A stretch of DNA of 20,992 nucleotides from a virus: positions 1 to 20,992 of IMG/VR virus record IMGVR_UViG_3300021440_000139. One strand, given 5' to 3'. Position 1 is the first letter of the stretch, and each line of letters opens with the position of its first letter. This document shows positions 3,990 through 20,992 of this stretch, in pieces. The position numbers and the translations under genes are program-made. Below the pieces are notes generated by a model, which saw only the letters and a program-made list of their open reading frames with translations, was not told the origin of the DNA and made no database searches.

Positions 3990-5570
3990 ATGACACTTTG
4001 GTACGTTCGTCCGAGCACCTCGCACAGCGGAACGCGTAACGGCACCAGCTACGATACAGCCTGGGGCACATGGTCGGAGATCGTGTGGGCATCGCTTGCC
4101 GCCGGAGATCGATTGCGGATCTGCGGCGCGCATGTTTACACCAGCAGCCGTGCCACCAGCGCGCATGGTGGCACAGTAAACGCGCGTGTGGTTCTTGAAA
4201 GCTACAACGCCGATCCTGGATCCATCACATTTACCGCACTCGGCCTGACGATCGACGTGAATCATACCGAGATCCGCGGCCTGACAATCACGTCTGGTAC
4301 CGCGCAGGCCATATTGCTGAACGCGGCCAACTTGCAGAACGTTGCCATCGTCAACAACAACCTGGTGTGTGGTGCCGGCAGTACCAGCAACATCCTCGGC
4401 CTGCGCGACGTGACAGGCCTGAACTACAGTGACATCTTGATCGACGGCAACACTTTCACAGGCAAGCCGTCCGCTGGGTCTGCTATCCGCTGGTGGCTGA
4501 GCACGACGGGTGACCTTGGCACCATCAGCCGGTTGACGATTTCCAACAACAAGTTTGTCGGCGTTGTCACCTCCCGGGCCGTTATTCGGTTGCTCTACAA
4601 CCCAGACGTGAACGCCGGCACCAAACTGGCCGACATCAAAGTCATCGGCAACACCTTCACAGATTGCGTGGGCCTTGCTATCGAGGTCGGCGGCGGCGGT
4701 GGTGGTGCGCTGGCTGTGCCCGGCCGCGACACCGGTATCATCGTCCGCGGCAACGTCGCGCGGCGCCTGTCCTATGCCGGTGCTTTCGGCGGCATGATCT
4801 TCCTGTACCAGTTCGGCCCCTCGCTCACGCCCGGCTTCGGCCCAAACTTGGTGGAGTGGAACGAGGGCTACGAGATCCAGGGGGCGGGCGGCTTCATCGA
4901 TCTGCTGCAGGGCACCTACGTGGTCCAGTTCAACTACTGCGACGACGTGTGGAGCAACGGTTTCGACGGCAATGGTGTTCTGCTCGATTTGAGCAGCTAT
5001 AACTGCGTAGTCCGCTGGAATGTGCTGAAGAATTTGCGTTCCAACGGAAGCGTTTATGGAAGTGGCATGGGCATCTATGTCATTTCTTCGACCGGCGCGG
5101 AGGTGTACGGCAATCTGATCGAAAACTGCCGCATCGGTCTGGGTTTCTTCTGTCCTACAGGCTCGACCCAATCGGCAAACGTCTACGGCAATACGTTCGC
5201 AAACTGTTCCGTCAGTGCCATCTACCACGGGCAGCAGGACACAAACAAAACAGGCACCCACTGCCGCAACAACGTTTTTGTCGCAGCCACAAGTGGTGTT
5301 CAAGGTGTCAACAATACTGGAGCTGTGTGGTCAGGTACAGAAGACTACAACAACTTCTACAACTTCGGCGCCAACGTCAACCACACTTTCGGCGTCAACA
5401 CGCAAACGCAAAAGCCAAACCTTTCCATTCACTGGCGCCCAGCGCAAAACTCACCACTGCGCCGAGCTGGAACTCATTTAGCGTATACAACTGATTGCGA
5501 TGGCTTTACTCGTTGGAATCCGCCGACCATCGGAGCCTTCGAAATCCAACCTGATCGAAGTGTACGTTGA
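3990..5570 (+). CDS. Right-handed parallel beta-helix tailspike-like protein
   Basis: A 526-residue protein of the pectate-lyase/tailspike architecture. The N-terminus, TLWYVRPSTSHSGTRNGTSY then WASLAAGDRLRICGAHVY, is the opening cap common in this superfamily. It is followed by many short coils with I/V.NN, NxF and GN.F turns (VAIVNNNLVCG, ILIDGNTFTG, LTISNNKFVG, IKVIGNTFTDC, VYGNLIEN, VYGNTFANCS), typical of a beta-helix asparagine ladder. In virions such proteins bind or cleave host surface polysaccharide. No separate head-binding domain precedes the helix, so attachment probably needs a partner. G+C is visibly lower in the 3' part of the gene than in the capsid genes. The start follows the upstream stop by two bases with no good Shine-Dalgarno. 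Confidence 0.75.
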   Translation: MTLWYVRPSTSHSGTRNGTSYDTAWGTWSEIVWASLAAGDRLRICGAHVYTSSRATSAHGGTVNARVVLESYNADPGSITFTALGLTIDVNHTEIRGLTITSGTAQAILLNAANLQNVAIVNNNLVCGAGSTSNILGLRDVTGLNYSDILIDGNTFTGKPSAGSAIRWWLSTTGDLGTISRLTISNNKFVGVVTSRAVIRLLYNPDVNAGTKLADIKVIGNTFTDCVGLAIEVGGGGGGALAVPGRDTGIIVRGNVARRLSYAGAFGGMIFLYQFGPSLTPGFGPNLVEWNEGYEIQGAGGFIDLLQGTYVVQFNYCDDVWSNGFDGNGVLLDLSSYNCVVRWNVLKNLRSNGSVYGSGMGIYVISSTGAEVYGNLIENCRIGLGFFCPTGSTQSANVYGNTFANCSVSAIYHGQQDTNKTGTHCRNNVFVAATSGVQGVNNTGAVWSGTEDYNNFYNFGANVNHTFGVNTQTQKPNLSIHWRPAQNSPLRRAGTHLAYTTDCDGFTRWNPPTIGAFEIQPDRSVR

Positions 5571-7489: not shown

Positions 7490-9508
7490 ATGCTGACACT
7501 TCAAGGCCGTCTCACCCTCACCGAGGCCGTTGCGAAAGCGGCGGACCTCACGGATCGCTTTGTGCGGGAAGACCTTACCGCGCTGGGTGGCTGGGTCTGG
7601 GAAGGCTACGACGCGGACAAGCAGTCGCGGGCTGGCTGGGAGAAGCGCATGCAGGCGGCGATGGACCTCGCCCTCCAGCTGCAAAAGACGAAGACCTTCC
7701 CCTGGCAGGGCGCAGCGAACGTCGCCTTCCCGCTCGTCACGATCGCGGCGCTGCAGTTCCACGCCCGGGCCTATCCCGCCACGGTGAGCGGCACCGAGGT
7801 CGTCCGTATGCGCGTGACTGGTGCCGATGAGGATGGCGCCCTCAACCAGCGTGCGCACCGCGTCGGTCGCTTCCTCTCCTACCAAGTGCTCGAGGCCGAC
7901 GAGGCCTGGGAAGAGCAACACGATCGCCTGCTCTTGAACCTCCCCATCATGGGATGCACGTTCAAGAAGACGACCTACTCGCCTGCGGCCGGATGCCCTA
8001 CCAGCGAGATGGTTTCAGCAACCGACCTGGTGATGGACTACTTCGCCAAGTCGGTGGAGACGTGCCAACGCAAGACGCACGTCATTTACCTCTCCCGCAA
8101 CGAGGTGTACGAGCGTGTGCGCTCCGGTCTCTTCCGGGACATCCTCGACGAAGGCTGGTATCGCAGCCCGCAGGTGCCTGACACAAACGTCCGGGGTGAC
8201 GTACGGAGGGGCGAGACTCCTCCCAGCGCCCCGGACGAGGCGACTCCGATCTGCTTCCTCGAGCAGCATTGCTGGATCGACCTGGACGGTGATGGCTACG
8301 CCGAGCCCTACATCGCCACAATCGAGGAAGGGTCGAAGTGCCTCGTGCGTCTGGTGGCGCGATGGGAGCGTTCCGAGGACGTCGAGCGTGACGCGCGAAG
8401 CCGCGTGATTCGCATCAACGCGAGCGAGTACTTCACCAAGTACGGCCTCATCCCCTCGCCGGACGGCTCCGTCTACGACCTCGGCTTCGGCATCCTGCTC
8501 GGGCCGTTGAACGAGTCGGTGAACTCGATCGTGAACCAGCTGATGGACGCAGGCACCATGCAGGTGGCGGCGGGCGGCTTCCTCGCGAAGGGAATCAAGA
8601 TCCGCTCGGGCGACTTCAAGTTCTCCCCGTTCGGTTACCAGCGTGTGGACGCGAGTGGCGAGGACCTGCAGAAGGGCGTGTTCCCCTTCCCGGTTCGCGA
8701 GCCCTCAGCGGTGCTGTTCCAGCTCCTCTCCCTCCTCATCAACTACACGCAGCGTATCTCCGGCTCGACCGACATGCTGGCGGGAGAGAACCCCGGCCAG
8801 AACACTCCCGCCGAAACCACTCGGGAGATGGTCGAGCAGGGCATGAAGATCTACAACTCGCTCTTCAAGCGCGTGTGGCGCTCGATGAAGCGGGAGTTCA
8901 AGATCCGCTACAAGCTCAACGGGCTCTACCTCGGCGCCGTCACCTACTTCGGCGGCGCGGGGGACAAGGCCCTCATCGAAGACTTCCAGGCCGATCCAAA
9001 CCTCATCTGCCCGGTTGCCGACCCGAACGTCGCTTCGGATGGGCAGCGAGTGCAGCAGATGACGCTGGTGAAGCAGGCGGCAGCGGCAACGCGTGGCTAC
9101 AACCTCGACGAAGTCGAGCGGGAATGGCTGCGTGCGCTGAAGGTGGACGGCATCGACAGGCTCTTCGTGGGGTCAGACAAAACCCCTCCCACGAAGGACC
9201 CGAGGATCGCCGTCGCCGAACTCAAGGCAGAAACAGAGAAACTCAAGCTCCAGCAGGAGCAACAACTCTTCATGATCGAGCTGATGTCGCAGCGCGAGTT
9301 CCTCGCGGCGCAAATCCTCGAACTGCAGGCACGGGCTGCGAAGCTTGGCGCCGATGCAGCCAACGAGGGTGCGCAGCAAACCGTGAGCACAATCAACGCG
9401 ATGATCGGCCTCATGAAGACACAGGACGACGCCCTCCACGCCCGCGCGGATCGTCTCCTGAAAGCCAAGGAAATCGAGCAAAATGCAAAGCAACCCCAAC
9501 CGGGATGA
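7490..9508 (+). CDS. Portal protein
   Basis: A 672-residue protein forming the dodecameric vertex through which DNA enters and leaves the head. The segment KTFPWQGAANVAFPLVTIAA followed by LQFHARAYP near residues 65-95 is characteristic of large podovirus-type portals. A conserved region with SEYFTKYGLIPSPDGSVYDL and GPLNESVNSIVNQLMDAGTM around residues 310-355 (the stem/crown area) follows. The C-terminal ~110 residues are a long Lys/Glu/Gln-rich coiled coil, as in portals with an extended barrel. An upstream in-frame ATG at 7466, inside the terL end, is possible, but 7490 follows the terL stop by four bases. The gene overlaps the next one by 26 bases. Confidence 0.88.
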   Translation: MLTLQGRLTLTEAVAKAADLTDRFVREDLTALGGWVWEGYDADKQSRAGWEKRMQAAMDLALQLQKTKTFPWQGAANVAFPLVTIAALQFHARAYPATVSGTEVVRMRVTGADEDGALNQRAHRVGRFLSYQVLEADEAWEEQHDRLLLNLPIMGCTFKKTTYSPAAGCPTSEMVSATDLVMDYFAKSVETCQRKTHVIYLSRNEVYERVRSGLFRDILDEGWYRSPQVPDTNVRGDVRRGETPPSAPDEATPICFLEQHCWIDLDGDGYAEPYIATIEEGSKCLVRLVARWERSEDVERDARSRVIRINASEYFTKYGLIPSPDGSVYDLGFGILLGPLNESVNSIVNQLMDAGTMQVAAGGFLAKGIKIRSGDFKFSPFGYQRVDASGEDLQKGVFPFPVREPSAVLFQLLSLLINYTQRISGSTDMLAGENPGQNTPAETTREMVEQGMKIYNSLFKRVWRSMKREFKIRYKLNGLYLGAVTYFGGAGDKALIEDFQADPNLICPVADPNVASDGQRVQQMTLVKQAAAATRGYNLDEVEREWLRALKVDGIDRLFVGSDKTPPTKDPRIAVAELKAETEKLKLQQEQQLFMIELMSQREFLAAQILELQARAAKLGADAANEGAQQTVSTINAMIGLMKTQDDALHARADRLLKAKEIEQNAKQPQPG

Positions 9509-9779
9509 GTTCCAGGAATGGCTTCTCCACCCGGTGACGCGAGCCTTCCGTGAGTATCTGGACAAGCAACGCCGGGCACTCATGGAAAAATGGGCGAGCG
9601 GAGACATTGCCCAAAAGGCGAAGCACGAGCATATCCTCATGGACGCGAGTGCAATCTCCGCCTGCCAAACCATGCAGGGCCTTCGGGACCTGAGTTACGA
9701 CAACCTGATTGAGGTACTGAACGATGAGCAAGTTGAATACTTCGGGCCTGAAGCCCCTCGGCCGCGCGATCTTGGTTGA
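9483..9779 (+). CDS. Small helical protein between portal and co-chaperonin, unknown
   Basis: A 98-residue, mostly helical, charged protein (RDEFQEWLLHPVTRAFREYL at residues 8-27). It overlaps the portal gene by 26 bases and the GroES-like gene by 56 bases, so the three are tightly coupled. The head, EFQEWLxHPVTxxFxxxL, recalls small proteins next to portals in other podovirus-type genomes. Those have no established function that I know of. A role as a portal or head-assembly accessory is suggested only by position. Confidence 0.7.
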   Translation: MQSNPNRDEFQEWLLHPVTRAFREYLDKQRRALMEKWASGDIAQKAKHEHILMDASAISACQTMQGLRDLSYDNLIEVLNDEQVEYFGPEAPRPRDLG

Positions 9780-10044
9780 GCCCTACGAGGCCGCGACCAA
9801 GTCGGAGACGATCCTGATTCTCGAGTCCACCAAGGAGCGCAACGTCATGCTGGAAACCCGCGCCGTCGTCATCGACGTCGGACCTGTCGCCTGGTGCGAG
9901 GAGCCCACTCCTCGCGCGAAGGTGGGCGATCGGGTACTGGTCTCCAACATGGCAGGCGTCGTGGCGGTCGGGCCGCTCGATGGCAAGCGCTATCGCGTCA
10001 TCAACGACCGCGATGTCTTTTGCGGCCTGGTGGAGGGCGTGTGA
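9724..10044 (+). CDS. Phage-encoded GroES-like co-chaperonin
   Basis: A 106-residue Cpn10-fold protein. LGRAILVEPYEAATKSETIL is followed by VVIDVGP and AKVGDRVLVSNMAGVVAVGP, then a final strand pair YRVINDRDVFCGLVEGV; this is the co-chaperonin order. Residues ~24-33 (ATKSETILIL) match the mobile loop, with ILIL in place of the GroES IVL tripeptide that docks on GroEL. Length is slightly above host GroES (about 97). It likely replaces host GroES as the lid of host GroEL while capsid protein folds, as T4 gp31 does. Its place just ahead of scaffold and capsid genes supports this. GAGG lies about 10 bases before the ATG, inside the upstream gene. Confidence 0.82.
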   Translation: MSKLNTSGLKPLGRAILVEPYEAATKSETILILESTKERNVMLETRAVVIDVGPVAWCEEPTPRAKVGDRVLVSNMAGVVAVGPLDGKRYRVINDRDVFCGLVEGV

Positions 10045-10871
10045 TGGAACTCGAACAAGAAGCGATGCAGATGGGCTGGGTTCCGCTCGAGCGGTTCCGC
10101 GGCGATCCCGAGAAGTGGGTCGATGCGGAGACGTTCGTCTCGCGCGGCAAGGAAGTGATGCCGATCCTCAAGGCGAACAACGCGCGCCTGCAGGAGAAGC
10201 TCACCCAGACCACCGCGATGACGACGGCCCTCCAGGGCGACATCACCGAGCTCCGCGCGACCATCGAGGAGATGACAAAGTTTCAACGCGAGGAAGTCCA
10301 GCGCCAAGTGGACGCGCAGATCGAGCGGCTGAAGCTCGAGAAGCGCACCGCTCGGCGTGAAGCCAACGACGACCGCGTCGACGAGATCGAGGACGAGCTC
10401 GAAGAGCTCGCGGAGCGGAAGACTACGCTGGCGAAGGCGCCCGCAGCGGCTCCGACGCCACAGCCGAAGCCGGGTGAAACGCCGCAGGGCGTCGATCCCG
10501 CCTTCGTCGAGTGGTCGAAGACCCGCCCCTGGGTGTCGAACGATCCCATTAAGGGCTCGCTCGCTCTCGGCGTGGCGCAGAAGCTACGGATCGAAGGCAC
10601 CGACCTGTCCGGCGTGGACTTCTACGACGAGGTGGAGCGGCGCGTGGAGGAGTTCTTCGCCGCGCCTCGCACCAGCAAGACAGAAGGCGCTGGCGGTGGT
10701 GGCTCGGGCGGTTCTTCGCGGCAGCTGAAGGGGGGTTACTCCTCTCTGCCGGCCGAGGCGAAGGCCGTCTGTGACCGCCAGGCCGAGAAGTTCGTCGGCC
10801 CGAACAAGCAATTCAAGACCCTGCCTGAGTGGCAGGCCCACTACGCGAAACTCGTTTCCGAAGCCAGCTGA
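10044..10871 (+). CDS. Scaffolding-type protein
   Basis: A 275-residue acidic, mostly helical protein. After a short conserved head (MGWVPLERFRGDPEKWVDAE), residues ~40-130 form a long coiled coil rich in Glu/Lys/Gln/Arg. A Pro/Ala linker follows (KAPAAAPTPQPKPGETPQG), then a small globular part (FVEWSKTRPWVSNDPIKGSL), a Gly/Ser linker, and a basic C-terminal helix. Scaffolds of this kind bind the coat protein through the C-terminal helix and leave the prohead later. The gene lies between the co-chaperonin and the capsid genes, the usual place. ATG at 10044 overlaps the preceding stop (TGATG) with GGAGG seven bases upstream. Confidence 0.72.
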   Translation: MELEQEAMQMGWVPLERFRGDPEKWVDAETFVSRGKEVMPILKANNARLQEKLTQTTAMTTALQGDITELRATIEEMTKFQREEVQRQVDAQIERLKLEKRTARREANDDRVDEIEDELEELAERKTTLAKAPAAAPTPQPKPGETPQGVDPAFVEWSKTRPWVSNDPIKGSLALGVAQKLRIEGTDLSGVDFYDEVERRVEEFFAAPRTSKTEGAGGGGSGGSSRQLKGGYSSLPAEAKAVCDRQAEKFVGPNKQFKTLPEWQAHYAKLVSEAS

Positions 10872-10878
10872 GGCAGCC

Positions 10879-11445
10879 ATGACCCAAGCCACCACTCCCA
10901 CCCCCGCCATCCCGAAAGCCACGCCTTCCGTCGAAGGCGATCTGCCCGGGACGAAAGTGTCGCCTGCATCGGAGGCACCGCGCCGCGTCACCCTCGCGAG
11001 TCGCGTACCGATGGGACTGCCGCAGCAACGGCTGTCCGTCCCGGAGATTCCGGGGTACTTCTGCTACTGGCATGTGACCGACAACGTACCGCGCGCCCTT
11101 CGCGCCGGCTACGAGTTCGTCTCACCCGAGGAAGTCGATGTCGCCAGCTTCGACGTTGCCGGTGATCCCACCCTGCCAGGCGGCACGGACATGGGCTCCC
11201 GCATCAGCCAATCGTCCGGTGTGGGCGCGTTCGCTGCGGATGGTGGGGCCGAACGGCTCTACCTGATGAAGCTGCCGCAAGAGTTCCGCGACGCAGACAA
11301 CAAGGCCCGCGAGGCCGGCTCCGAGCAACTGGCCCGCAAGCTGCGTGCCGGCATGGCCGGAGCGGAAAACGATCCCGATCGCGCCCGTCGCTACATGAAG
11401 CAGGGGCAAGATCTCTTCATCCCCAAACGCAATCGAGGTTCCTAA
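10879..11445 (+). CDS. Conserved head-region protein of unknown function (188 aa)
   Basis: A 188-residue soluble protein. The first ~40 residues are Pro/Thr-rich and probably disordered. SRVPMGLPQQRLSVPEIPGY at about residues 43-62 leads into FCYWHVTDNVPRALRAGYEFVSPEEV, a compact conserved-looking domain. The C-terminal third is basic and helical (FRDADNKAREAGSEQLARKL). Proteins with the lsvPeipGYhxxWxxD....raxxAGYeFV pattern occur beside capsid genes in many phages, but I know of no proven function; minor head or assembly protein is the best guess. Start at 10879 with GAGG just upstream; the in-frame reading from 10771 lies inside the scaffold gene. Confidence 0.7.
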   Translation: MTQATTPTPAIPKATPSVEGDLPGTKVSPASEAPRRVTLASRVPMGLPQQRLSVPEIPGYFCYWHVTDNVPRALRAGYEFVSPEEVDVASFDVAGDPTLPGGTDMGSRISQSSGVGAFAADGGAERLYLMKLPQEFRDADNKAREAGSEQLARKLRAGMAGAENDPDRARRYMKQGQDLFIPKRNRGS

Positions 11446-12048
11446 ATGGCAAACACTCCCTTCGGGCTGGCGCCCGTTCGCTACCACAACGGCTCGCCCT
11501 ACAACGGCGCAGCCCACGTGTACTTCATCCCGTCCACCGACGGCAACGCCTACGCTATCGGCGATCCGGTGATGTTCGCTGGCAGCGCCGACGCAAGCGG
11601 GCGCTGCGCCACCGTGGTCCTGGCCACGGGCGGCACCGGCAACTCGGTCCTCGGTTGCATCATCGGCGGTGGCTCGAACACCTACGGCGGCGCGATCGGT
11701 GCCAACCCGACGACGCTCGAGACGACCATCATCCCCGCGACGAAGACCCGCGGCTACTACGTCCTGGTGGCCGACGATCCGAACCTGGTCTTCGAGATCC
11801 AGGAAGACAGCATCGGCAACAACCTGGCCGCCACCGACGTGGGCAACAACTTCAACCTCGTCTCCGGCGCCAACAACGGCTTCATCTCCGGCTGGCAGCT
11901 CGATTCCTCGACCGCCGCGACCACCAACACCCTGCAGCTCAAGGTGCTGGGCCTGTCGCCGAAGCTGAACAACGCCATCGGCACCAATGGCAAGTGGCTG
12001 GTCATGATCAACAACCACGCGCTCCGTCCGGGCGTCGCCGGCGTCTAA
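11446..12048 (+). CDS. Capsid decoration-type structural protein
   Basis: A 200-residue protein rich in Gly/Asn/Ala/Thr with many short beta strands and no long helix. It begins ANTPFGLAPVRYHNGSPYNG, a pattern familiar from structural proteins encoded just before podovirus-type major capsid genes, and contains YYVLVADDPNLVFEIQEDS in the middle. Its size, composition and place suggest a head decoration or minor capsid protein that stabilises the shell. The start codon directly abuts the previous stop (TAAATG), with GAGG eight bases upstream. Confidence 0.68.
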   Translation: MANTPFGLAPVRYHNGSPYNGAAHVYFIPSTDGNAYAIGDPVMFAGSADASGRCATVVLATGGTGNSVLGCIIGGGSNTYGGAIGANPTTLETTIIPATKTRGYYVLVADDPNLVFEIQEDSIGNNLAATDVGNNFNLVSGANNGFISGWQLDSSTAATTNTLQLKVLGLSPKLNNAIGTNGKWLVMINNHALRPGVAGV

Positions 12049-12078
12049 CGCCACCTCAACCCAACAAGGAGCACAATC

Positions 12079-12999
12079 ATGCCCGCAGGTTCCATCAACA
12101 CCGGCACCCATCCCCTCCTGCTCTGGCCGGGGGTCAAGACCGTCTGGGGTCAGGTCAACGCCGAGCACTCGCCCGAGTACATCGACCTGTACGAGATCGA
12201 CACCTCGACGCAGGCCTACGAGAAGAGCGTCGAGATTACCGGCTTCGACATCGCCCCGATCAAGCCGGAAGGTCAGCCGGCTTCCTTCGACTCGGAGGTG
12301 CAAGGCGCCGTCTCCACCGTCACGCACATCGCTTACGCGCTGGGCTACATCGTGACCTACGAAGAGCTGCAGGACAACCTGTACGAGCAGGTGGCGGGCA
12401 ATCGCGCCCGCGCGAACGCCTTCGCGATGAACCAGACGGTGGAGAACGTGGCCGCGTTCCTCTACAACAACTCGCTGACCACCACCTACTTCACGACCGG
12501 CGACGGCGTGGCGCTGAACTCCGCCTCGCACGTCCTGCCCCTCGGCGGCACCTACAGCAACCTGCTGTCGACCGCTGCGGACCTGTCGGAAGTCGGCCTG
12601 GAAGACATGGTGGTGCAGGTCTACGGCGCGCAGAACAACCGCGGGCTGCAGATGAACCTGATGCCGCGTTCGCTGATCGTGCCGCGGCAGCTCTGGTTCA
12701 CGGCGAATCGCGTCCTCAAGTCGACGATGCAGTCGAACACCCAGTCGAACAACATCAACGTCCTGAAGGCGGTCAACGCGATTCCCGAGGGGATCAAGAT
12801 GAACCACTACCTGACCGACGCGACGACCTGGTTCATGCGCACGAACTGCCCCAACGGCATGAAGTTCTACTGGCGCCACAAGCCCGATCTGATGCAGGAC
12901 AACGACGGCGACACGCGCAACGCGAAGACTATCTCGTACATGCGCTTCTCCGTGACGTGCGAGGACCCGCGCGGCCTGTACGCCAGCGCCGGTTCCTGA
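12079..12999 (+). CDS. Major capsid protein
   Basis: A 306-residue shell protein, probably of HK97 fold. The order fits: an N-terminal arm, a long stretch with GQVNAEHSPEYIDLYEIDTS, a charged helix region (YEELQDNLYEQVAGNRARAN, then FAMNQTVENVAAFLYNN) matching the spine helix, and a C-terminal axial part (KMNHYLTDATTWFMRTNCPN). It lacks an obvious protease-delta domain, in keeping with a separate scaffold gene. Shine-Dalgarno AAGGAG at 12066-12071, seven bases before the ATG, is one of the strongest in the window, as expected for the most abundant virion protein. A hairpin follows the gene. Confidence 0.85.
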   Translation: MPAGSINTGTHPLLLWPGVKTVWGQVNAEHSPEYIDLYEIDTSTQAYEKSVEITGFDIAPIKPEGQPASFDSEVQGAVSTVTHIAYALGYIVTYEELQDNLYEQVAGNRARANAFAMNQTVENVAAFLYNNSLTTTYFTTGDGVALNSASHVLPLGGTYSNLLSTAADLSEVGLEDMVVQVYGAQNNRGLQMNLMPRSLIVPRQLWFTANRVLKSTMQSNTQSNNINVLKAVNAIPEGIKMNHYLTDATTWFMRTNCPNGMKFYWRHKPDLMQDNDGDTRNAKTISYMRFSVTCEDPRGLYASAGS

Positions 13000-13006
13000 T
13001 CGTCAA

Positions 13007-13035
13007 GCGGGGGTGTTGCATGCAATAACCCCCGC
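13007..13035 (+). terminator. Hairpin after the major capsid gene
   Basis: An 8-bp perfect stem GCGGGGGT/ACCCCCGC encloses a 13-base loop holding GTTGCATGCA. It begins seven bases after the capsid stop. The sequence after it, ATTCTCGCATGC, is not a good T-run, so this may be a partial terminator, a 3'-stabilising stem or a processing site that separates abundant capsid mRNA from the tail genes. The next gene starts 28 bases further on. Confidence 0.5.
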
Positions 13036-13062
13036 ATTCTCGCATGCATTATCGGAGGTGCC

Positions 13063-13770
13063 GTGTCTCTTCTCGCTTCAACCATCATCACTCGCGCGAT
13101 GCAGAACGCCGGGCTCATCGAGTCTGTGGCGACGGCTTCCTCCGACCAAATCACTTCGATGTTGCCGAGGCTCAACGACCTCATCAACGTCTGGCAGACG
13201 GAGGGGTTGAAGCTCTGGCTCACCCGCTCCGTGACGGTGCCTCTCGTAGCGGGCCAGCCCGACTACGAACTTGGACCCTCCCTCGACGTCTCCATGGCGC
13301 GCCCACTGCGGGTTGACGGAGCCTGGTACGTGACGACGGCGGGCAACCGGAGAGAACTCACCGTCGCCGCTCGCAAGTCCTATCGGACGCTGCCCAACCT
13401 CACGCAGCAGGGCTCCATCAACACCTACTACACCGAGAAGCTCCCCGCGAAGCTCGTGGTGTGGTTCTGGAACGCCCCAACTGCGGCGGAGGCGGCAGCA
13501 GGTTCCGTCGAACTCGACGTGAGGTCCCAAGTCACCGGCTTCGACGCGGTGACGGCCTCCACGTCCTTCCCGGACGAGTGGGCCCTCGCCCTTCAGTGGG
13601 GCCTCGCCGACGAGATCTCCACCGGCCAGCCCCAGGTCATCATGGACCGCTGCCAACAACGGGCGCAGGTCTACAAGGAGAAGCTCGACTCCTTCGAGGT
13701 CGAGGACGCCCCTATCCAGATGAGCGTGGACATGCCGATCAGTGGCTATGGTACGGGAGGGTTCGTCTAA
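13063..13770 (+). CDS. P22 gp4-like head-to-tail adaptor
   Basis: A 235-residue protein. The N-terminal half has the helical pattern of P22 gp4-type adaptors: IITRAMQNAGLIESVATASS, then QITSMLPRLNDLINVWQTEGLKLW. A later FPDEWALALQWGLADEIS helix packs against the portal in this family. Adaptors of this kind bind the portal ring and begin the short tail. Here a beta insertion (about residues 60-135, LPAKLVVWFWNAP) makes it longer than P22 gp4 (about 166 residues). The GTG at 13063 follows a GGAGG at 13054-13058. It overlaps the next gene by TAATG. Confidence 0.75.
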   Translation: MSLLASTIITRAMQNAGLIESVATASSDQITSMLPRLNDLINVWQTEGLKLWLTRSVTVPLVAGQPDYELGPSLDVSMARPLRVDGAWYVTTAGNRRELTVAARKSYRTLPNLTQQGSINTYYTEKLPAKLVVWFWNAPTAAEAAAGSVELDVRSQVTGFDAVTASTSFPDEWALALQWGLADEISTGQPQVIMDRCQQRAQVYKEKLDSFEVEDAPIQMSVDMPISGYGTGGFV

Positions 13771-16696: not shown

Positions 16697-17650
16697 ATGG
16701 CAGATGGCAGTGATGGACTTGGCGGCGGCTTCGACTCGTCCGCTGGTATTTTCGGAGGTGGCTTCGACCTCGGCAGCGGGATGAACGCTCCCGCAGGCTC
16801 CTTCAACGGAGCCGGCATGTCCCCCAGTTTTGGCGGCGGTGGCTTCACCGGCAGCTTCGGAGGTGTCCAGGGCCCGTCCCTGGGCGAGTCCTTTTTCGGC
16901 AACCCTGCAGCCAGCTGGGGCTTCGACACCAGCTCCATGGACGGACTGCTCGGAAACTCCCCCGCAGGTCTGGGGCTTGGCAGCGTTGGCCTTGGCAATT
17001 TTGGCTATTCGAATGCTGGTGTCGCTCCGTCATTCGCTTCGAACCTGGCCCAGGCTCTGATGTCCCTGGCGAAGGGCAAGATGATGGGTCTCGCGGCGGG
17101 GAAGCTGGGCGTGCCGAGCATGGCCCTCAATGCGGTGGTGAGCGGTATTCAAGGGAAAGCCACTACCCCCACCGACGCGCTCAACGGCCTCTTCTCGACC
17201 GTGAGCCCCGCGCTCGGTCTGGCGAACTTCGGCCTCTCCGCGTTCGGGCAGCCTTCCCTCGGGAGCATGGCCGCCGGCTTCCTCGGCAATGCGACGACGG
17301 GTACGCCAGGGGCACCGAGTCCGAGCAACTCCGCCGATCCCCTCTCGATGATTATGTCACTCTATGGCCTCTCCAAGGCGGGCGCAATCAGGCGGCAGGC
17401 GGGCCTCCCCAGCTCCGACGTCACGCAGCTCCCCGGCTACCAGGCGGGCCTCCAAGCCGTCGAGCGCCGGATGAACGCGCAGGGCTTCCAAGGTTCGGGC
17501 AACATGATGACGGAGCTCGCGAAGTACGGCGGCGACGCCTACAACCAGGCGGCGACGCAGCGCATCAACTCCTCGAACGCGCAGATGGGCCCCCTCGTCG
17601 CGGAGATGAGTGCACTCGGTCTGCTCCGCTCGTCGCTGCCGGGAGGTTGA
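16697..17650 (+). CDS. Internal virion / DNA-ejection-type protein with Gly-rich N-terminus
   Basis: A 317-residue protein. Residues 1-110 are low complexity, dominated by Gly, Ser, Phe and Asn (GGGFDSSAGIFGGGFDLGSG). Residues ~115-215 have hydrophobic helices rich in Ala/Gly/Leu. The C-terminal part has QLPGYQAGLQAVERRMNAQG, then GSGNMMTELAKYGGDAYNQA. That motif set is familiar from phage proteins annotated as internal virion or DNA transfer proteins. By position it corresponds to the first of the P22 gp7/gp20/gp16 ejection set. Shine-Dalgarno AAGGAG at 16685-16690, six bases before the ATG, is strong. Confidence 0.68.
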   Translation: MADGSDGLGGGFDSSAGIFGGGFDLGSGMNAPAGSFNGAGMSPSFGGGGFTGSFGGVQGPSLGESFFGNPAASWGFDTSSMDGLLGNSPAGLGLGSVGLGNFGYSNAGVAPSFASNLAQALMSLAKGKMMGLAAGKLGVPSMALNAVVSGIQGKATTPTDALNGLFSTVSPALGLANFGLSAFGQPSLGSMAAGFLGNATTGTPGAPSPSNSADPLSMIMSLYGLSKAGAIRRQAGLPSSDVTQLPGYQAGLQAVERRMNAQGFQGSGNMMTELAKYGGDAYNQAATQRINSSNAQMGPLVAEMSALGLLRSSLPGG

Positions 17651-17651
17651 G

Positions 17652-18743
17652 ATGGCTGAAATCGGCATGGCCTTCATGGCGCCAATCCAGGCGCGGCAGA
17701 AGATGCTCATCGAAGCAGCTGCGGCGCCGGTTGACCTCGCGGCAAGGCAGGCAGCAACCACCCTCAACACGGCGAATGCGGCGCAGATGCAGCAGCACAT
17801 GCAGGATGCGCAGGCCCTCCGCGCCATCACGATGTCCTCGCTGGCGCAGCAGCCCGCCGCTGGAGCGGAAGCCCCAAATCAAAGCGACCAGCTAAGCACC
17901 CTCGGAAACGCCCTACTCTCCCAAGGCTTCTACAAAGAGGGTACGGCCGCTCTCGCACAGGGTGCGCTGGTGGACTCTCGCGGCGCGCGGGCCGCTGCCA
18001 CGACGCAGAAGACTGAGTTCGACAAGGCGAAGTGGTACCTCGAGCGTGTCGGGGGCGTGATGAACCAGAGCGACCTCGACCGGACGAACGAGCTGTTCCA
18101 GCAGATCTTTCCCGGCGCGACTCCCTCGGTGACGAAGTACGACACGAATGTGGTGCGGAACGCCCTCCGCTCCTCGATGACAACGGCGCAGCGGCTCATG
18201 GCCGAAAACCGCGACGAGCGGCTTTCCGTCTACGTGGCGTCCCTCGCGCAGCAGGAGGATGCGCGGAGGGAGCGACTGCGGCTTGCGGATCTGGAACTGA
18301 ACCGCCGGGTCGAGGCTGACGCGAACCGCGCTAAGGCCGGAGCCAAGGGAACTGGCGGGCGGGCTCCCTCCACCGCCGCCCCCATCGCGAAGGCGACGAC
18401 CCTCGCCATGAAGGACGATCCCGACGCGTCGAAGCTCGAAGGGACAGAGGCCATGGCCGCCCGCCTTACGATCGCGCAAGAGGCTGATCGCCTCATCAAG
18501 GCCGACCCGAGCCTCAACTACGACCAGGCAGCCCGGGCGGCGCTCCTTACCGCGAAGAAGCGGGGTGACTTCTCCGTCGAGAAGGGGATGTTCTCCGACA
18601 AGGTGCGCTACTCGGCGAAGGGGCTCCGCGTGGAAGATCCGGCACCGCTCCCCCCTACCAAGGACAAGCTCGCGGCAGGGCGCTTCTACCAGACCAAGCA
18701 GGGACCTGCCCTCTGGAACGGCACTGCCTTTGTGAAGGATTGA
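17652..18743 (+). CDS. Internal virion / ejection-type protein (363 aa)
   Basis: A 363-residue, predominantly helical, Ala/Gln/Arg-rich soluble protein. The N-terminus (AEIGMAFMAPIQARQKMLIE, residues 2-21) and helices through residue ~240 are typical of long coiled or bundled ejection proteins. A Gly/Ala/Pro linker near 250-265 precedes a helical part, and a short beta tail reads KLAAGRFYQTKQGPALWNGT. That final GxxYxTxxGpxxWnG strand pair resembles an anchoring or packing module. It starts one base after the previous stop, with GGGAGG upstream; a longer reading from 17610 lies in the preceding gene. It is the second of three adjacent ejection-type genes. Confidence 0.62.
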   Translation: MAEIGMAFMAPIQARQKMLIEAAAAPVDLAARQAATTLNTANAAQMQQHMQDAQALRAITMSSLAQQPAAGAEAPNQSDQLSTLGNALLSQGFYKEGTAALAQGALVDSRGARAAATTQKTEFDKAKWYLERVGGVMNQSDLDRTNELFQQIFPGATPSVTKYDTNVVRNALRSSMTTAQRLMAENRDERLSVYVASLAQQEDARRERLRLADLELNRRVEADANRAKAGAKGTGGRAPSTAAPIAKATTLAMKDDPDASKLEGTEAMAARLTIAQEADRLIKADPSLNYDQAARAALLTAKKRGDFSVEKGMFSDKVRYSAKGLRVEDPAPLPPTKDKLAAGRFYQTKQGPALWNGTAFVKD

Positions 18744-18744
18744 G

Positions 18745-20992
18745 ATGGCGACGTTCTCGTTCGAAGAAGCGATGGGCAGCACGGCCGCTCCAGCGGCGCC
18801 GAGCCTGCCCGCTCCAGTCTCCGCGCCCGCGGGAGGGAAGCAGTTCTCCTTCGAGGAGGCGATGGGCGCTCCCGTGCCTGTCTCGTCGGTCAAGCCCGCC
18901 GACGACCCGAATTGGCCGCTCAAGGACACCCTCAAGGAGCACGGCGCCAAGTTCCAGAAGGAGTTCGCGAAGGGCGCCAGCAGCCTCGGCACCGTCGCGG
19001 ATATGCTGGTGGGCTTCCCCTGGCAAGTCTGGTCCACGATGGCGGAGGCGGACAAGCTCCAGCAACTCCGCACGTACAACAAACTCGCTGGCGCGAACGG
19101 GATGAAGACCCTCTCGCGGAAGGAGATGGAAGACCAAGCCGCGACAGTCCGGAACGAGATTCTCTTGCGTTCGCCTACCTTCTTCACGCAGCTGGCGGAC
19201 ACCCTCAAGGCACCTACCGACACCACTCAGGGCAACCCGGTCGCTCACGCGATGGAGACGGTGAGCAAGCTCCTCGACGAGCAGGGCGGTCAGATCGAAT
19301 ACCTCACGGGCGGTCGCTTCACTCGTAACAACTTCAACGCAGCGGTGAATGGTGTTTTCGCCGGCCTCGGTCTCACAGGCGCAGTTGCTCCGATGAAGGG
19401 GGCGGCGAAGGCCCAGCAGGCGCGGGCGGATGCGGCGCTCAAGACGACGAACTTCCCCATCGTGGAAGAGCCGCCCAAGGAGAGCCGTCCGGTCGACTAC
19501 ACCTACGTGCCTGCCGCCCACGACATTCCCGCTCCCGAGGCGGTGGCGAAGTGGAAGGAGCGCACCGACGCCGCCACCTCTGCAGCGGAAACCAAGACGA
19601 ACTACTCCGACCTCGACCGCATGCGGACGGCGGAGCAGATGGCCTCTCGCCTCATGGCGGAAGGGGCCTCGGTCAAGCGCGTCGAGGCGATCGTGGCGAA
19701 GAACCCCCTCGTTGGGGAGGCGATGGCGGCGATTCGCGCTCGGCGCGCGGCGGTAGTTGATTCGAGGCTCGGAACAGTGCAGCAGTTCGGCGCGAGCGAC
19801 ATCCTCGATCCGAACCAGGGGAAGCCGGGAGCGCCAGCACTCGAGCCGCCAGGCGGGCGAGTTGCGCCCGAGGGGACGCCGACTCCTGGCACTTCGCTCT
19901 CGGTTCCGAAGACCGTCGCCGCCGTGGCTGCGGGTGCGGCGGCCGCCTACGGCCTCTCGCAGATGGACTCTGACCAAGCCGCGATCGCCGCGATGGCGCC
20001 GGTGGCCTTCGTCGCGGGTCGTGGGAAGGGACTCACCCTCGAGGAACTTCGCGCAGTTCCACCAGAGACGTCGCTGGGCACGCTGCTCGATCGGTCAAGC
20101 TACACGCTGAAGACCCTCGACCGCCTGCCGAAGAACCGGACGGAGTTCCCTGTCCAGATGGTGCGGGACCAGCTCAAGCGCCAAGACGTCTCCGCGCCGG
20201 AGAAGGCGATTCTCGAGAAGGTCCTCGAGGGGAAGGAGAAGGTCACTGCGAAAGACCTCATCACGAGCATGAAGGAGCAGACGCAGAGCTGGGAACTGAC
20301 GCCGAAGAAGACCGACACCTACGCCGACTATGGGCTGGAGAACATCGATCGGGCGCAGCCGAATCCGGACTTCTCTTTGCGAGACGTTCGTGAGGCTCGC
20401 CTTGAACACGCCTCCAGCAACGGAACGCTGTATCAGGTCATCACACCGGATGGCGAGATCCTTGACTCACTCGTTATCCAGGCGGGCGAGGATCAGGCTG
20501 CCGCACTTGCGAAGTGGAAGACGGAAGCAGAAGCCATCTTCGACGGCCCCGAGGCCTCGACGAACCTCTACCGTCTCCCCGACCACATGCAGATGTCGGC
20601 CAACAACCACTTCGGCGATCCGCAGCTCTTCGGCTGGACGCGAAGCTTCGACGAGAAGGGCGTGCGGCACGTCGTGGAGATCCAGTCGGATCTGGCACAG
20701 CACGCGGGAAAGGTGCTGTCCGAGGAAGAGCGTGCCGCTGCGACAAACGCCCAAGCGGAAGGCCTGACACGCGCACAGATGCTGCGTGACCTGGGAGAGC
20801 AGCTGCTTCCGTTCGAGAAGTTCAATCCGGTTGGTCCGCTAACCTACACTCCCTCGACGACACTCGTGCCCCTTCTCGACAAGTTGCCGTCGGGAGTAAA
20901 GACCAACTTCCTGCGTAACCTGGCGCGGCAGCTCGACCTTAGTGAGTCGGCAGCAGAAGGCGCCGGGACCTACGTGCTGCGTGTGCTTGACA
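18745..20992 (+). CDS. Giant internal virion (polyvalent-type) protein, N-terminal 749 residues, cut by the window edge
   Basis: An open frame runs from ATG 18745 to the right edge without a stop (checked codon by codon through 19561-20992), so the gene is partial. It begins TFSFEEAMGS and repeats FSFEEAMG at residues 34-41. A helical region follows to about residue 200, and Ala/Gly-rich hydrophobic stretches near 390-404 and 413-425 could cross or dip into a membrane. Near residues 622-655, HFGDPQLFGW and VVEIQSDLAQHAG match an EIQSD-type motif that I recall from large polyvalent and internal virion proteins of phages. By analogy with P22 gp16 and T7 gp16 it may be ejected ahead of the DNA. 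AAGGA lies eight bases before the start codon. Confidence 0.65.
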   Translation, partial: MATFSFEEAMGSTAAPAAPSLPAPVSAPAGGKQFSFEEAMGAPVPVSSVKPADDPNWPLKDTLKEHGAKFQKEFAKGASSLGTVADMLVGFPWQVWSTMAEADKLQQLRTYNKLAGANGMKTLSRKEMEDQAATVRNEILLRSPTFFTQLADTLKAPTDTTQGNPVAHAMETVSKLLDEQGGQIEYLTGGRFTRNNFNAAVNGVFAGLGLTGAVAPMKGAAKAQQARADAALKTTNFPIVEEPPKESRPVDYTYVPAAHDIPAPEAVAKWKERTDAATSAAETKTNYSDLDRMRTAEQMASRLMAEGASVKRVEAIVAKNPLVGEAMAAIRARRAAVVDSRLGTVQQFGASDILDPNQGKPGAPALEPPGGRVAPEGTPTPGTSLSVPKTVAAVAAGAAAAYGLSQMDSDQAAIAAMAPVAFVAGRGKGLTLEELRAVPPETSLGTLLDRSSYTLKTLDRLPKNRTEFPVQMVRDQLKRQDVSAPEKAILEKVLEGKEKVTAKDLITSMKEQTQSWELTPKKTDTYADYGLENIDRAQPNPDFSLRDVREARLEHASSNGTLYQVITPDGEILDSLVIQAGEDQAAALAKWKTEAEAIFDGPEASTNLYRLPDHMQMSANNHFGDPQLFGWTRSFDEKGVRHVVEIQSDLAQHAGKVLSEEERAAATNAQAEGLTRAQMLRDLGEQLLPFEKFNPVGPLTYTPSTTLVPLLDKLPSGVKTNFLRNLARQLDLSESAAEGAGTYVLRVLD

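Follow-up and report, generated by a model that had tools for sequence, protein, structure and literature searches.

Polyvalent proteins are described in Iyer et al. 2017 (PMC5512222), in the part of the text available, as containing ARTs, GNATs, and peptidases as well as 40 LPDs whose function is unknown, and the same part of that source names T4 Alt as a protein that is injected and modifies RNA polymerase. Rac of phage LUZ19 is, according to the accessible part of PMC7552054, a predicted acetyltransferase which inactivates host transcription. No paper on the EIQSD motif was found under its letters, as EIQSD occurred only in unrelated papers and EVQSDW, EIQSDW, and IQSDW in none, and novelty is limited to these words. 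LPD23 as a literature term also led to unrelated papers only.

The window, which is the whole stretch of DNA analysed here, is a virus record 20,992 bases long. Its last gene, read 5' to 3' on the + strand, encodes the large protein with the EIQSD motif. Relatives are designated by L numbers; L150 is the relative whose predicted model was used to place the strands. The features of the window around this gene are:

16697-17650, + strand: protein of 317 aa in the place of the small internal virion protein, assigned by position only.
17610-18743, + strand: protein of 377 aa in the place of the second internal virion protein, assigned by position only.
18745-20991, + strand: large virion-position protein of polyvalent type with ATG start, the 3' end of its gene truncated where the contig stops, leaving 749 aa.
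20110-20298, + strand: helical module KTLDRLP...QSWEL before the domain, conserved in the clade (alignment A3).
20299-20313, + strand: predicted strand beta1 of the GNAT-like domain (TPKKT), by alignment to strand 82-86 of the L150 model.
20557-20574, + strand: predicted strand beta2 (STNLYR), by alignment to strand 129-134 of the L150 model.
20602-20622, + strand: NNHFGDP loop, residues 620-626, with invariant H622 (frame translation and conservation in alignment A4).
20626-20655, + strand: predicted strand beta3 (LFGWTRSFDE) with invariant R633 (strand 152-161 of L150; R in 19/19 rows).
20662-20691, + strand: predicted strand beta4 and start of the putative cofactor loop (VRHVVEIQSD), with E645 to D649 (strand 164-171 of L150; E, Q, S, and D in 19/19 rows, partly selected by the search patterns).
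20692-20991, + strand: loop LAQHAGK and insertion (alignment A3 and the L150 model).

The contig end falls before helix 3, strand 5, helix 4, and strands 6-7, and half of the domain is missing from the window. The stretch HFGDP corresponds to residues 622-626 and VVEIQSDLAQ to residues 643-652 (nt 20671-20700). The frame translation agrees with the initial annotation in the numbering of E645 (nt 20677-20679) and D649 (nt 20689-20691).

Genes upstream of the large gene and in the same direction code for the terminase large subunit (phrog_38, E 9.7e-69), portal protein (phrog_1216, E 1.4e-09), capsid protein (phrog_4523, E 5.5e-08), and head-closure protein (phrog_578, E 1.4e-37). The capsid, g13063, head-closure, g15140, and large proteins encoded in the window have matches in the same gene order in several relatives, and the virion position claimed for the large protein is right on grounds of gene position only, in a virion block colinear with that of the relatives. 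The 317-aa protein has a short similarity to proteins of the relatives in its C-terminal part. No significant similarity was found between the 377-aa protein and the protein of like length in L003 or those of other loci. Homology of the two genes upstream of the large gene with their L003 counterparts was considered and not found, despite the like lengths. A GroES-like co-chaperonin is encoded between the portal and capsid genes at 9724-10044, in the direction of these neighbours (phrog_3188, E 3e-11). Upstream of the terminase, at 3990-5570, there is a protein of 526 aa, Asn/Gly-rich and by eye repeat-like, with no PHROG match, which is perhaps a tail spike.

A 48-residue query recognized three relatives, and alignments of those recognized more. 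Alignment A4 has 19 rows, namely the window and 18 IMG/VR relatives carrying the whole domain. L133 and L152 were excluded from it, as their frames break after the motif; in these two loci, at about 10.6-10.7 kb, the large gene is apparently in two frames soon after the EIQSD motif (one of 409 aa, then another), and the split appears to be a frameshift or sequencing error. In A4, the H of HF, the R of TR, and the E, Q, S, and D of E[IL]QSD are each present in 19/19 rows; the relatives were fetched by patterns on the motif stretches, so that the invariance of NHF and HVVE[IL]Q is partly selected, while the R and the positions past the end of the window lie outside these patterns. The clade profile matches the window with E 5.8e-83, a partly circular value, since the 19 rows of the profile include the window. 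The longest alignment is that of L153, from another contig, which covers 684 columns and window residues 84-734 with 33% identity and E 6e-74. Thus the motif of HFGDP and VVEIQSDLAQ is real, being shared with relatives of the same gene order that also carry the rest of the domain. Beyond the end of the window, the domain of the relatives continues with motifs around K-N/D-W, V-R-F-A-x-A-D-T, I-Y-D-R-Y, and G-H-x-W-x-E-V-P. Bacterial genomes searched with the clade alignment through two narrow patterns gave no match.

The large protein of those relatives not cut by contig ends is, as in very large multidomain proteins encoded with virion genes, about 1200-1930 aa long from stop to stop, and that of the window is cut at 749 aa. 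Pfam LPD23 was over the cut-off in 2 of the 13 clade proteins scanned (L131 and L156), and no such match was found in the window. LPD23 (PF18838) lies at residues 238-281 of the large protein in L131 and 232-275 in L156, some 520-570 residues before the EIQSD motif.

A larger family carries the variant IEE[IV]QSDW. A degenerate DNA pattern for IEE[IV]QSDWH matched at least 120 viral stretches, near-copies included, and among the viral matches listed the motif is in an open frame in 119/120 (L025 has none), that is, in at least 119 viral loci. It was also confirmed in 61 bacterial or archaeal contig loci, mostly metagenome bins, of 164 pattern-matching stretches. With one member as a tblastn query, relatives were found in 5 records out of 50,697 from phages and in 5 out of 72,556 from plasmids. 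One of the plasmid loci, L230 (P. aeruginosa plasmid p382, 1-9566), encodes a very large protein annotated with LPD23 (record 67300-82302) that contains a domain of the EIQSD type; an integrase is nearby, and the locus is perhaps a phage-like element on the plasmid.

The viral and genome loci were fetched by patterns fixing IEE[IV]QSDW(H), and invariance in this stretch is by construction. Alignment A2 (65 rows) originated from 123 motif loci, of which 74 passed a K..W..L..R expression and then a redundancy and length filter; K116, W119, L122, and R126 of A2 are therefore partly selected. Residues were recounted on all hits, from all loci, of the HMM built on A2. A tyrosine in helix 4, which is in no search pattern, is present in 110/110 viral, 56/56 genome, and 5/5 named rows with a residue there (171/171 together), and likewise in 18/18 such rows of the window clade, where it lies past the end of the window. 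The H before strand 3 (119/119 viral, 61/61 genome, and 5/6 named rows) and the R in strand 3 (120/120, 61/61, and 5/6, respectively) are also conserved in this large family and lie outside the IEE[IV]QSDW patterns.

Among the known domain families, any Pfam domain model was matched by no more than 1/65 large-family members, and none of the 65 matched an LPD or GNAT model of Pfam at E 0.01. A Pfam LPD family was rejected as the identity of the motif on this count of LPD matches. The profile phrog_7348, labelled endolysin, matches 62/65 members; the label was rejected for the IEE[IV]QSDW family, as it comes from a long multidomain profile of 2564 positions. Similarity to polyvalent domain families, which the initial annotation had led one to expect, was thus present in the two LPD23-bearing clade relatives, and absent from the window, which has no Pfam match, and from the large family in respect of LPD models. 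To our knowledge, Pfam need not hold all of the 40 LPDs described from polyvalent proteins. The EIQSD domain may be one of those 40 LPDs of Iyer et al. that are without a Pfam model, as compared by text only.

The window clade and the large family were compared directly. Profile comparison in hhalign gave 39 columns with E 1.9e-5 and probability 77. The large-family HMM scored at most 10.2 bits for clade proteins and 0.7 bits for the window, and no clade locus passed E 1e-5. The conserved H, R, E-x-Q-S-D, W, and Y are all present in the clade in this order, W and Y past the end of the window. The two groups share the order H...R...E-x-Q-S-D, the W helix after the insert, Y-D in helix 4, and the predicted fold. 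They differ in that the clade has VVEIQSDL, whereas the large family has IEEIQSDWH, and in that the subsequent GR..GY is lacking from the clade. The complete stretch WHQxGRxxGY after the motif is not found there; 17/19 rows have L or V, one residue, and Q, and W is at the first place in 0/19. We think that both groups could form one superfamily, mainly because their predicted folds agree.

Pelagibacter phage HTVC028P is a named phage with the domain. Its gp34 reads HFNKMNEFAHVRF...VVEEMQSDLLQ, and the gene is located two genes after 'putative internal protein A' and adjoins 'putative internal virion protein'. With HVRF...VVEEMQSDLLQ, gp34 looks intermediate between the two families and lies in a block of internal-protein genes; in one-sequence searches it matched the large-family HMM with E 2.9e-51 versus E 2.6e-05 for the window-clade HMM. 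A separate putative acetyltransferase gene (gp37) is in the same block as gp34 (L227, 4592-5053 and 7207-10071).

AF2 models were computed from separate alignments for L150 (window clade, 19 rows) and L081 (IEEIQSDW family, 65 rows). The L150 model has a mean pLDDT of 82.8 and pTM of 0.73, and the L081 model a mean pLDDT of 85.5 and pTM of 0.77. Ahead of the domain, residues 5-79 of the L150 model, the counterpart of the helical module, form helices and two short strands. The first part of the domain consists of strand 82-86, short helices, strands 129-134, 152-161, and 164-171 (IRHVVEIQ), and a helical insert, and the second part of helix 251-265, strand 270-274, a short helix, helix 303-322, and strands 326-329 and 335-340. 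The order in L150 is therefore b1-a1-(a2, low confidence)-b2-b3-b4-[insert]-a3-b5-[short helix]-a4-b6-b7, and in L081 it is b2-b3-b4-a3-b5-[inserted strands and helices]-a4-b6-b7. The L081 slice seems to begin at strand 2, because its matches begin near residue 33 of many single-domain chains; those of L150 mostly begin near residue 1-5 of the matched chains in VIA-align. The GNAT fold has the order b1-a1-a2-b2-b3-b4-a3-b5-a4-b6-b7. The predicted L150 model has this element order, and the VIA-align rows of L150 and L081 agree with it.

Among the best 50 VIA-align rows for each model, all are GNAT-fold chains as read, and most titles name an acetyltransferase or a toxin of that kind; the ICL2 entries, 8g8k, 3eo4, and the Elp123 entries, whose titles do not say so, we take to be GNAT-fold chains as well. 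The best row is 1y9k for L150 (Z 9.1, 3.5 A, 117 aligned) and residues 636-763 of 9obo for L081 (Z 8.6, 3.5 A, 122 aligned), and Z values of 8-9 are only modestly above the level that VIA-align calls common. Foldseek against PDB revealed nothing at E 0.001 or better for either model, with best values of 0.042 and 0.23, which is perhaps due to the insert. In BFVD, the L150 model comes closest to a 'Large polyvalent protein associated domain-containing protein' (41% identity, E 3.7e-22), and the first acetyltransferase-type row (NAT_SF) has E 0.2. The view that the motif belongs to a domain of polyvalent-type phage proteins is supported by this 41% match and by LPD23 in 2/13 relatives. By strand order, EIQSD, with E645 and D649, is at the end of predicted strand 4. 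In GNATs, the end of strand 4 holds the pantetheine and pyrophosphate of acetyl-CoA. Taken together, this widespread orphan domain quite probably has a GNAT-like fold, as judged from the models.

Sequence comparison with GNATs gave a different result. The hhalign of both alignments against 30 PF00583 proteins had local E values of 0.71 and 0.87 (0.4-0.9 over modes), PF00583 was found in 0/4 records (G000, G001, G003, and G007) at E 0.001, and neither alignment yielded an informative match in profile searches of PDB. The classical GNAT motif A is [QR]xxGx[GA] after strand 4. It is complete in 1/19 clade rows and 16/65 large-family rows under a loose reading of the 16 residues after EIQSD; the corresponding region of the window is QHAGKV, with Q and the first G only. 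A tyrosine in helix 4, such as that conserved here, is a common general acid of GNATs. Because sequence profiles give no support and motif A is mostly absent, the EIQSD domain was not filed as a GNAT; it is more probably GNAT-like and may work like one.

It is somewhat unlikely that the resemblance to GNATs arises as an artefact from a widespread alpha/beta arrangement, with the EIQSD domain being a fold of its own. Such a reading draws on the lack of any Foldseek E below 0.04 for PDB, on Z values of 8-9 near the noise level stated by VIA-align, and on the absence of profile similarity to GNATs, but two models from separate alignments agree, and the best 50 rows for each are GNAT-fold chains. 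A GNAT-like fold without enzyme activity, in which the domain would serve the structure or assembly of the ejection apparatus and its conserved residues would have a structural role, is quite unlikely. In its favour are the absence of motif A from most rows, the moderate fold match, and a gene position like that of internal virion proteins; against it, most of the invariant residues have polar or charged side chains (H, R, E, Q, S, D, and Y), the strand order places them in strands 3-4 and helix 4, the site of GNAT active sites, and giant proteins with quite another architecture, the product of a 5000-codon plasmid gene for instance, contain the domain too.

Another enzyme on a GNAT-like scaffold, for example an aminoacyl transferase, a peptide ligase, or a family-specific chemistry using EIQSD with H/R, is very unlikely. 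FemX, arginyl-tRNA-protein transferase, and LasI do appear in the Foldseek list, all with E above 1, and the conserved set differs from classical motif A, but the best structural rows are mostly acetyl-CoA enzymes, though such lists cannot tell chemistry. That the window frame merely resembles the EIQSD domain by chance would fit the direct searches, in which the window protein had no match in Pfam, PHROG, or NCBIfam and only a chance-level match in PDB sequences (E 2.1), the domains of the window, L003, and L004 had none among 50,697 phage records, and an initial scan of viral sequences with the complete window protein, by patterns without the motif, had none either. This is extremely improbable, as relatives share the motif, the gene order, and the rest of the domain, and one of them aligns over nearly the whole frame.

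The preferred reading is that EIQSD forms strand 4 and the start of the cofactor loop of a GNAT-like domain, and that the giant virion-block protein would be ejected with the DNA and transfer an acyl group to a host target; we hold this with even confidence. Judging from the gene position and the annotated neighbours in HTVC028P, the giant protein would be packed in the capsid and would leave it with the phage DNA, and the domain would then move an acyl group from acyl-CoA to the host target at the start of infection. The enzymatic role guessed in the initial annotation gains weight from the GNAT-like predicted fold of the L150 and L081 models, and we infer acyl-CoA binding and catalysis from this fold, the invariant helix-4 tyrosine, and the invariant H, R, E, Q, S, and D in or near strands 3 and 4. 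The anti-defence role that the initial annotation also suggested drew evidence in neither direction from these analyses. For an ejected active enzyme, the chances seem evenly balanced.

In some relatives, a sigma factor is part of the same giant protein. Regions 2 and 4 of Sigma70 are over Pfam cut-offs just after the domain at residues 970-1130 of L003 and 974-1136 of L142. The large protein of L003, encoded at 8192-13711, has an ECF-type sigma factor at residues 970-1130, and residues 948-1122 of L138 are 53% identical to this stretch (similarity only). The sigma factor was found in 3/18 clade proteins besides the window (blastp, E 0.001), a count in which L139 and L126 are cut by contig ends. 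In the phylogenetic tree, where sigma labels are on L003 and L142 only and L138 is unlabelled, the window groups with L155 and L003/L138/L139/L142 at 88/94, below the star threshold. With support below the threshold and with no sigma match in L155, nothing is said about the missing end of the window. As a first and weak guess, the target of the domain might be the host transcription machinery, because three clade proteins carry a sigma factor and both Rac and T4 Alt act on host RNA polymerase.

What is new here is a predicted GNAT-like fold for a domain which is present in at least 119 viral and 61 bacterial or archaeal loci and is nearly an orphan in Pfam. The fold assignment makes this domain a testable enzyme question, namely whether acetyl-CoA is bound and what is modified. 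If ejection holds, the domain would act before any phage gene is expressed, and in those relatives that have a sigma factor beside it, one protein would hold two takeover devices. A broader proposal, that EIQSD marks a large unnamed family of virion-borne phage acyltransferases, joined in some relatives with an ECF-type sigma factor in one ejected polypeptide, is unlikely; if true, the particle would deliver at once a host-modifying enzyme and a factor steering RNA polymerase to phage promoters.

Compared with the GNATs of PF00583 and kin, the EIQSD domain has a like predicted fold, element order, and helix-4 tyrosine, but it differs in having no profile similarity, a mostly absent motif A, and an insert between strand 4 and helix 3. 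In common with the GNATs of polyvalent proteins, as given in the available part of PMC5512222, it would be an acetyltransferase-type domain in a virion-position polyvalent protein; two GNAT families are described there as RimI-like, and the letters EIQSD are absent from the text available. The likeness to LUZ19 Rac, taken from the accessible part of PMC7552054 and by description only, is that of a predicted phage acetyltransferase acting on the host, as is proposed for EIQSD; Rac, however, is a separate gene product, unlike the EIQSD domain, which is one part of a giant protein.
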